Assembly (NCBI RefSeq): GCF_000147695.2
Contig: NC_015958.1
Coordinates: 1,790,001-1,854,000, forward strand
From: Thermoanaerobacter wiegelii Rt8.B1
GTDB taxonomy: Bacteria > Bacillota > Thermoanaerobacteria > Thermoanaerobacterales > Thermoanaerobacteraceae
Length of the DNA: 64,000 bases
Reading direction: 5' to 3'
Positions 36,253-50,577 of this stretch are shown in pieces (the stretch's first letter is position 1; each line of letters starts with the position of its first letter). The notes beneath the pieces are model-generated. The model was not told where the DNA came from and made no database searches. It saw only the letters and a list, made by a program, of their open reading frames with translations. Made by a program: the position numbers and the translations under genes.

Positions 36253-36405
36253 ATGTCAGCAGAAAATGTAGTTAAATGTTCAGTAAATACTTGTAGTTAC
36301 TGGAAAGATATGAAATGTCATGCTCCATCGATTGAAATAAATTCAAAAGTAATGTCTGCAAAAACTAGTGCAGAAACAGAATGCACAACATTTAAACCAA
36401 GATAA
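36253..36405 (+). CDS. DUF1540 small cysteine-rich protein
   Basis: A 50-residue protein: MSAENVVKCSVNTCSYWKDM then KCHAPSIEINSKVMSAKTSA then ETECTTFKPR. The pattern CsVntCxYw...kChA...I.....A..s..TeC.tF is the DUF1540 family, with four conserved cysteines likely to bind a metal. The function is unknown. Members are common in spore-forming clostridia. The ribosome site is GTGAGGTG with the ATG at 36253. Its terminator hairpin (36415-36440) has been split from its T tract by a repeat element. Confidence 0.8.
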   Translation: MSAENVVKCSVNTCSYWKDMKCHAPSIEINSKVMSAKTSAETECTTFKPR

Positions 36406-36414
36406 CGCAAAGAA

Positions 36415-36440
36415 AAGCATTGATATTCTATTCAATGCTT
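36415..36440 (+). terminator. Terminator hairpin of the DUF1540 gene, left duplicate
   Basis: Arms AAGCATTGA and TCAATGCTT around an 8-base loop, ten bases after the DUF1540 stop. The hairpin is followed by CAG (the start of the repeat element), not by its T tract. The same 26 bases recur exactly at 36769-36794, where the T-rich tail is still present. Confidence 0.75.
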
Positions 36441-36768
36441 CAGTTTGTTGACAAAGTTAAAAAATATTCAAAGGAGATATTTTGCATCGTCGCTCCGATG
36501 TTCCAAAGCGACAAAACTAAAGCTCGACCTTCAGGCTCCGGCAGGGTACCGGGCACAATCGGCATCCATGCCTTAAGGTGCCCGCCTCCGCCATCCCTGG
36601 CTTCGGCCCTGCCTACGCCCTCGGTCTTGCTAAGTTTCCCGGCAAGTAAGTAAGCTTGTTTTTTCTATTTTTGCTTTATCAAACTCTCTTACTTGAGTGC
36701 CGGGTTGCTTTGTAACAAGTCGCTCCTTATGCAAAATATCTCCTTTACGAAAGTTTGTCTACAGTCTG
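36441..36768 (+). mobile_element. GC-rich structured repeat element, copy 1 (328 bp)
   Basis: A non-coding element with terminal inverted repeats: GGAGATATTTTGCAT near the left end (about 36473) and its complement near the right end (about 36728-36743), plus outer GACAAAG/CTTTGTC-like ends. The core is GC-rich and folds into stems, including GTCGCT/AGCGAC, CGGGCAC/GTGCCCG, GCAGGG/CCCTGC and GGCAT/ATGCC. A second copy on the other strand is at 50287-50550. Copy 1 holds about 60 extra bases that form the hairpin CCCGGCA...TGCCGGG (about 36638-36707). Exact 26-base terminator duplicates flank it. No protein is encoded, so it must be moved by others. Confidence 0.75.
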
Positions 36769-36794
36769 AAGCATTGATATTCTATTCAATGCTT
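36769..36794 (+). repeat. Right duplicate of the 26-base terminator hairpin
   Basis: Exact copy of 36415-36440. Here the hairpin is followed by TTCTTTC, so it is the working end of the original terminator. The pair is best read as a target duplication made when the 328-bp repeat was inserted. Confidence 0.75.
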
Positions 36795-36823
36795 TTCTTT
36801 CACTTTAAATTTTTTAATTTGTA

Positions 36824-37048
36824 TTACACTTCATATCCTGTATCAATAATTGCTTTTTTCATATCATCTACAGAAACTTTGGAAGGATCATATGTTACCG
36901 TAACATCACCTTTGTCAAGATCAACAACAGCTTTCGATACCCCATTTAACTTCTTTAGTGCGTTTTCAACAGACATTTTGCAATGGTTGCATGTCATCCC
37001 TTTAACATTTATGACAATAGTCTCACCTTTAGTTCCAAACCAGCCCAT
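36824..37048 (-). CDS. copZ: Copper chaperone, HMA-domain protein
   Basis: A 74-residue single heavy-metal-associated domain: VINVKGMTCNHCKMSVENAL has the CxxC site, and the rest has the beta-alpha-beta layout ending in AIIDTGYEV. It carries Cu(I) to CopA. The short N-terminal extension MGWFGTKGET is unusual. The ATG at 37048 is chosen, with AAAGGGG 10 bases before it; an upstream in-frame extension has no ribosome site. It lies apart from copA. Confidence 0.85.
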   Translation of the reverse strand: MGWFGTKGETIVINVKGMTCNHCKMSVENALKKLNGVSKAVVDLDKGDVTVTYDPSKVSVDDMKKAIIDTGYEV

Positions 37049-44056: not shown

Positions 44057-44106
44057 TATACAAAGGTACCTCACCTCCTCTATACACCGTAGAGAAGTGG
44101 TAACAA

Positions 44107-44301
44107 ATACAGGCAGGTCTCCTGACTTAGGCTCATCACTCTTTACGCCTTCCCACCCTTCAAACATCGGGGACGGTTCCTTTTGTTTGAACAGGCAGTG
44201 GCATAATGTAAAGAGCTCACCATCACAGTGGCGGGACCGTGCAGGACTTTCACCTGCTTCCCTTTTAACCCAATTTTAGCTTCCAAATTGGGCACCTGTA
44301 T
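44107..44301 (-). promoter_or_regulatory. Cobalamin (B12) riboswitch upstream of nrdDG
   Basis: Minus-strand landmarks of the cobalamin aptamer in order: GAAGCAGGTGAAAGTCCTGC, ACGGTCCCGCCACTGTGAT, the B12 box GCCACTG, and AGTCAGGAGACCTGCC. The closing stem pairs ATACAGG (44107-44113) with CCTGTAT (44295-44301). A variable stem TTCAAACA/TGTTTGAA carries AAGGAACCGTCCCC in its loop, a short motif seen again at 51844. A terminator follows, so binding of B12 probably stops transcription into nrdD. Confidence 0.93.
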
Positions 44302-44361
44302 CTGAGAATATTAATTTTTCTACAAAATATAGTGTATAAAAATATTTATAACTCAATATTT

Positions 44362-50251: not shown

Positions 50252-50286
50252 AAAAAAGACACCCGCACATCTTCTGCGGATGTCCC
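50252..50286 (-). terminator. Terminator of the DUF1847 gene, outer duplicate
   Basis: Hairpin with arms GACACCCGCA/TGCGGATGTC (50258-50284, one wobble pair), followed on the minus strand by TTTTTT. The gene it serves ends at 50597, and the repeat element lies between them. A second, variant hairpin sharing the same 17 bases TCTTCTGCGGATGTCCC is at 50551-50577. Confidence 0.75.
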
Positions 50287-50550
50287 AGACTATAGACAAA
50301 CTTTCGGAAAGTAGATATTTTGCATAAGGAGTGACTTGTGACAAAGCGTTAACAAAACTTAGCGAGACCGAGGATGGAGGCAGGGCCGCAACCTTGTGAT
50401 GGCGGAGGCGGGCACCTGAGACAGGATGTCGAATGTGCCCGGGACCCTGCCGAAATCCGAAGGTCGAGCTTTAGCTTTGTCGCTTTGGAACTCCGGAGCG
50501 ACGATGCAAAATATCTGCTTTTAAAAATTTTTGACTTTGTCAAAAAGCTG
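50287..50550 (-). mobile_element. GC-rich structured repeat element, copy 2 (about 264 bp)
   Basis: Reverse complement of the element at 36441-36768, without that copy's extra hairpin. The ends hold AGATATTTTGCAT and its complement. The core stems GTCGCT/AGCGAC, CGGGCAC/GTGCCCG and GCAGGG/CCCTGC are all kept. An inner stem reads GACA/TGTC here and GGCA/TGCC in copy 1, a paired change that keeps the pairing. As in copy 1, it sits in sense orientation inside the terminator of the preceding gene, with a hairpin on each side. It encodes no protein. Confidence 0.75.
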
Positions 50551-50577
50551 AGACAGCCGTCTTCTGCGGATGTCCCG
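50551..50577 (-). repeat. Inner duplicate of the DUF1847 terminator hairpin
   Basis: GACAGCCG...CGGATGTC forms a hairpin with one mismatch, and it shares TCTTCTGCGGATGTCCC with the outer terminator at 50252-50286. It has no T tract on the minus strand, since the repeat element follows directly. Best read as one side of a diverged target duplication. Confidence 0.6.

Follow-up and report, generated by a model that had tools for sequence, protein, structure and literature searches.

The window, that is, the whole stretch of 64,000 nucleotides that was analysed, holds between two convergent genes a 328-bp non-autonomous element (36441-36768) abutted at both ends by a copy of the same hairpin (Table 1). 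The hairpin sequence, AAGCATTGATATTCTATTCAATGCTT, is found at 36415-36440 and again at 36769-36794, a spacing of 354 nt, and the exact recurrence of the 26-base terminator hairpin claimed in the original prediction thus holds at 26 of 26 positions. The 64-kb window contains no other exact 26-mer pair at a distance of up to 400 nt, and an origin by chance was rejected because none of 100 first-order surrogates contained such a pair. Each copy has a 9-bp stem and an 8-nt loop. The right copy is followed by TTCTTT, the original T-rich tract, as had been expected; the companion claim, that the left copy had lost its T tract to the element, goes too far, since the element end that follows this copy, CAGTTTGTTG, still scores as a terminator in a lenient scan of the + strand, so that the left tract is better described as weakened than as wholly lost. 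The element is bounded by the imperfect terminal repeats CAGTTTGTTGACAAA and CAGACTGTAGACAAA and folds far better than its shuffles on both strands (z about -13); it matches no Rfam family at the gathering cutoff, and promoter-like matches around it are near the shuffled expectation. The window's only Rfam match at that cutoff is a cobalamin riboswitch (RF00174, 123 bits) at 44095-44314 on the - strand.

Table 1. Features of the locus and of the second copy of the element in the window.
Feature	Position	Strand	Evidence
DUF1540 gene, 50 aa, upstream of the terminator	36253..36405	+	Pfam PF07561, 51.8 bits (cutoff 22.1)
Left terminator hairpin copy (26-bp target-site duplication)	36415..36440	.	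Exact repeat; single in the empty sites of three relatives
MITE, 328 bp, without transposase gene	36441..36768	+	70 BLAST matches in the genome; orthologous locus in G002, G005 and G007 without the element
Terminal repeat, A end, CAGTTTGTTGACAAA	36441..36455	+	15 nt identical to one end of the full IS1182 element
Inner inverted repeat, left arm, 18 bp, perfect	36470..36487	.	
Inner inverted repeat, right arm	36729..36746	.	
Terminal repeat, B end, CAGACTGTAGACAAA	36754..36768	-	14/15 identical to the other end of the full IS1182 element
Right hairpin copy of the duplication	36769..36794	.	Exact repeat
T-rich tract TTCTTT of the original terminator, retained at the right copy	36795..36800	+	
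Heavy-metal-associated domain protein gene, 74 aa, convergent	36824..37048	-	Pfam PF00403, 72.4 bits
Second copy, left hairpin, 29 nt	50257..50285	.	
Second copy of the element, 265-bp form, reverse orientation	50286..50550	-	
Second copy, right hairpin, 25 nt (4 nt shorter than the left)	50551..50575	.	

The original prediction held that a site lacking the element should have one hairpin and one T tract, and this is the state of the orthologous DUF1540 locus in three of eight relatives from the genus (G002, G005 and G007), where AAAGAA:TTCTTT pairing brings the stem of the empty site to 15 bp. Among the remaining relatives, G003 and G004 gave the right flank only and G001 could not be placed, and in G006 the site is occupied by a 264-bp form in the opposite orientation, again with the hairpin duplicated, which is an independent hit on the DUF1540 terminator. 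The site in G008 (L063) holds what by eye is a decayed, different element; there, as at L041:1025, a short element with similar CAGACTG-type ends and a different interior lies, again as judged by eye, beside hairpins. When the flanks of 17 other sites (11 MITE, four full insertion sequences and two intron-bearing MITEs), joined so as to leave a single hairpin between them, were searched in the eight relatives, an uninterrupted match with a single hairpin was obtained for 15, of which 13 were realigned, several of them gapless at 97-100% identity, and two (L045 and L090) rest on the search table. For the second window copy (L018) and for L049, the search of the eight relatives yielded no full match to an empty site. 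Conversely, G001, G007 and G004 carry the element at a terminator where the genome studied here lacks it. Since hairpins adjoin nearly every copy, one might suppose that they belong to the element, or that the locus already had two of them before insertion; we put the probability of this close to nil, as the hairpin sequences vary from site to site and the empty sites hold one hairpin, which refutes this reading for the sites tested.

The 70 matches mentioned above come from a host genome of one contig (2,785,056 bases), and the element comes in forms of 328 or about 265 bp. The roughly 62 additional bases of the 328-bp form (approximately element positions 203-264) match the opposite strand of some other copies, as if this segment were invertible or an inserted repeat. 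Both ends could be placed in 27 of 40 own-genome loci examined and not in the other 13, and 24 of these 27 resolved copies have a flanking direct repeat whose score exceeds the 99th percentile obtained from 702 pairs of mismatched flanks. Of the three that do not, L037 looks decayed, while L011 and L013, in which a group II intron lies within the A end, were rejected as exceptions once discounting the intron restored their hairpin duplication. In the eight congeneric genomes, from which 66 copies were fetched and all except two resolved, 48 of 64 exceed the null. The 16 below it include L126-L130, and most of the others look decayed or have misplaced ends. These five are near-identical MITEs in the draft genome G006 with one common left flank. 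Eight other genomes contain this flank once, G006 contains it nine times and always on the reverse strand; we suspect an assembly artefact. Most resolvable copies elsewhere are therefore flanked by duplicated hairpins, as the first reading of the locus required. At four places, L093, L120 and L125 in relatives and L047 in the own genome, the ends of an element adjoin the hairpin copy of another element, which suggests repeated insertion into hairpins that had already been duplicated.

The same genome contains four copies of a full insertion sequence whose transposase (494 aa at L045 and at L046; 518 aa, by reading through, at L049) belongs to the IS1182 family, with a match to NF033551 at 490.4 bits against a cutoff of 270 and further matches to Pfam transposase domains. 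All four copies have the ends CAGACTGTTGACAAA and CAGTTTGTTGACAAA expected of the family as terminal inverted repeats around one transposase gene, one end of each being interrupted by an intron, and all four lie between duplicated hairpins, of 26, 21, 23 and 23 bp. The A end of the miniature element is identical to its counterpart in the full insertion sequence at 15 of 15 positions and the B end at 14 of 15, the resemblance being confined to these ends; short, without a transposase and with ends in common with an autonomous element of the same genome, it is properly a MITE. Because the ends and the target rule are common to both, it is probably mobilised in trans by the IS1182 transposase. 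The transposase family and the choice of hairpins are also those of IS1272-type stem-loop replacement (PMC4923244, PMC5678879), in which the target hairpin is removed and nothing is duplicated. Here a hairpin is found on both sides of the element and the empty sites hold one, making a replacement of this type extremely improbable at these loci.

The geometry of the duplication was evaluated on 75 cases, 27 from the own genome and 48 from the relatives. The own-genome sites were hand-picked (21 MITE, two intron-bearing MITEs and four IS copies), with L014, L020, L021 and L024 kept despite scores under 14, the cutoff used for the relatives, and with L018 entered by its right copy; L017, L036, L037 and L038, and L126-L130, are outside the set. 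For most DDE transposases the length of the duplication is constant and reflects how far apart the active sites lie. The duplications seen here have a median of 24 bp and range from 18 to 32 bp, apart from one case of 41 bp (L133), a doubtful value from an off-axis gapped alignment. A stem score of at least 7 with the dyad no more than 1 base from the centre of the duplication was found in 66 of the 75, compared with 19 of 2000 control windows. After removal of orthologous repeats, 63 distinct sites remain, and in 49 of them the centre of the duplication coincides exactly with the dyad of the hairpin, in 57 within 0.5 base; the six that are further off axis are probably due to decay or misread boundaries. 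The stem often extends a few bases past the duplication, which means that some joints lie inside the outermost pair. At nine of the 75 sites both a T tract and an A tract are missing by the cutoff of this analysis, and some of the targets are thus not clear terminators. Eleven terminators, counted likewise with L126-L130 set aside, are occupied in at least two genomes, and at five of these the element is found in opposite orientations; as the forms differ by about 60 bp in three of the five, inversion in place cannot alone account for this.

It might be argued that insertion is random and that selection has spared only the insertions at terminators, which are a harmless landing place, and most copies do lie beside T-rich or A-rich tracts. 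Selection of this kind, however, does not set both joints symmetrically about the dyad to within 0.5 base at 57 of 63 sites, nor does it send the element into five common terminators in both orientations, and we regard this explanation as very unlikely. A more serious case can be made for a transposase that recognises the inverted repeat in its ordinary duplex form, one subunit on each half-site, and cuts outside it with no extrusion. Such a reading would likewise yield a dyad-symmetric duplication, and the duplications mostly start with A (60/75) and end with T (63/75). Yet the half-site sequences vary between sites and the spacing of the joints is not fixed, so that the pair of subunits, on straight DNA, would need to accept every helical phase and nearly every sequence; we think it rather unlikely, at perhaps a minor share of the probability.

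The scenario we prefer, and in which we have considerable confidence, is that the miniature element is a relative of the IS1182-family insertion sequence of this genome, probably moved in trans, that targets hairpins, usually terminators, most likely by way of a cruciform, and duplicates them. The transposase would choose DNA hairpins, usually intrinsic terminators, and not a sequence; that the duplication is centred on the dyad and has no fixed length suggests that it reads the folded hairpin and attacks the two 5' feet. Let the hairpins be extruded on opposite strands, forming a cruciform. The element would then most likely be joined to the two 5' feet of the cruciform's hairpins, and gap repair would copy the whole hairpin on both sides; the duplication would therefore have about the length of the hairpin and be centred on its dyad. 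Since the 5' feet of a cruciform are close to each other whatever the length of the hairpin, attack at this position would make the length of the duplication track that of the hairpin. A fixed stagger on straight DNA predicts neither the dyad centring nor the reuse of terminators in opposite orientation. The outer hairpin on each side would keep the original T or A tract, so that each of the two convergent genes should retain a terminator at its end. Judging from the arrangement of the sequence, it is plausible that termination is spared by the insertion, as originally proposed.

A group II intron of about 660 nt lies inside one element end in all four full IS1182 copies and in two MITE copies (L045, L046, L048, L049, L090 and L091, all in the own genome outside the window), at the 3' end of the transposase gene in L045 and L046 and at its 5' end in L048 and L049. 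The insertion point, CAGNNTGT^TGACAAA, is directly behind the flanking hairpin and splits the terminal repeat. Matches to RF02001, RF01998 and RF00029 identify group II catalytic RNA behind a terminator hairpin, and seventeen further intron copies lie behind ordinary terminators, with a hairpin and a T-rich tract in the 5' flank as judged by eye. We take these introns to be of subclass C (group IIC). Introns of this group, in this genome as elsewhere, land directly behind the same kind of hairpins as the element; unlike the element, they are retroelements and insert behind the hairpin without duplicating it.

The pattern extends beyond the genus. From other genomes and plasmids 45 IS1182 loci were chosen (34 of 73 genome loci and 11 of 60 listed plasmid matches among 1163 records), two of which were unusable, and 20 of the remaining 43 are flanked on either side by a hairpin direct repeat, a pattern given by 0 of 1806 mismatched pairs. 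The foreign loci include Alkalihalophilus, Evansella, Paenibacillus, Enterococcus faecium, Providencia and Rhizobium; L307, where the pattern is apparent by eye, is outside the 20. At the loci of the five most distant transposases (27-30% identity, L310-L314) there are no hairpin repeats. Seventeen of the 20, all except L195, L212 and L230, were entered in the centring analysis, and all 17 are centred exactly, for duplications taken without flanks and partly trimmed by hand. One may then venture a broader proposal, to which we give about an even chance: the IS1182 branch with CAG...TGACAAA ends would have no fixed stagger and would instead measure the four-way junction of the extruded hairpin, so that the duplication is whatever hairpin is present; it would act across Firmicutes and some Proteobacteria, while the IS1272 branch would join the other feet and lose the hairpin; and in the genome studied here it would also build landing pads for terminator-seeking group II introns, which split the IS ends.

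Dozens of natural insertions here record a duplication whose length follows the target's own fold, and it becomes understandable how repeats can fill terminators without obvious damage. The hypothetical pathway drawn for IS1272 in 2017, in which a whole stem-loop is duplicated (PMC5678879), thereby becomes directly testable in a harmless thermophile. The element ends are also candidate sequences for IS1182-driven rearrangements such as TnCO-1 of Thermoanaerobacter kivui, a circular megatransposon in which an IS1182-like element takes part and for which the authors found a degenerate right-end sequence (PMC12056078). That element is of the same genus and transposase family as ours; the study, in the portion available, concerns the megatransposon and does not analyse terminators as targets. 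No description of this Thermoanaerobacter MITE was found in the literature searched, the coverage of which leaves out most subscription journals.

The original prediction called a 26-base duplication covering a whole hairpin unusual. This is true with respect to insertion sequences generally; it is less surprising than first thought because members of the IS1182 family, presumably one branch of it, are known to behave in this way, as the palindromic repeats of ISBma2, the terminator targeting of ISCbo5 and the hypothetical route drawn for IS1272 already record. ISBma2 of Burkholderia (2010) has direct repeats of 18-26 bp, the printed examples of which are palindromes, such as ACCGCAGCGAAGGCTGCGGT, and its ends, CAGATTGCTGACAAACCC and GGGTTCGTCAGCAGTCTG, resemble those described here, where the direct repeats are likewise palindromes of variable length; the available part of that report does not term the repeats hairpins or terminators and has no miniature element (PMC2877748). 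For ISCbo5 of Clostridium botulinum group III and C. novyi (2011), all sites except one were gene-end hairpins, described as transcription stop signals, and some positions look re-used; in contrast to the present account, the part of the report at hand does not spell out the duplication of the hairpin and mentions no miniature element (PMC3098183). IS1272 and TnSha1 of staphylococci, also of the IS1182 family, target stem-loops without sequence specificity, often terminators and in both orientations, and, as far as these accounts go, remove or partly delete the hairpin with no duplication, whereas here it is duplicated (PMC4923244, PMC5678879). What is new here is the miniature element, the proof from empty sites, the centring on the dyad and the group II introns nested in the element ends, and, relative to what the available parts of the ISBma2, ISCbo5 and IS1272 accounts present, the evidence for the rule is stronger in the present system.
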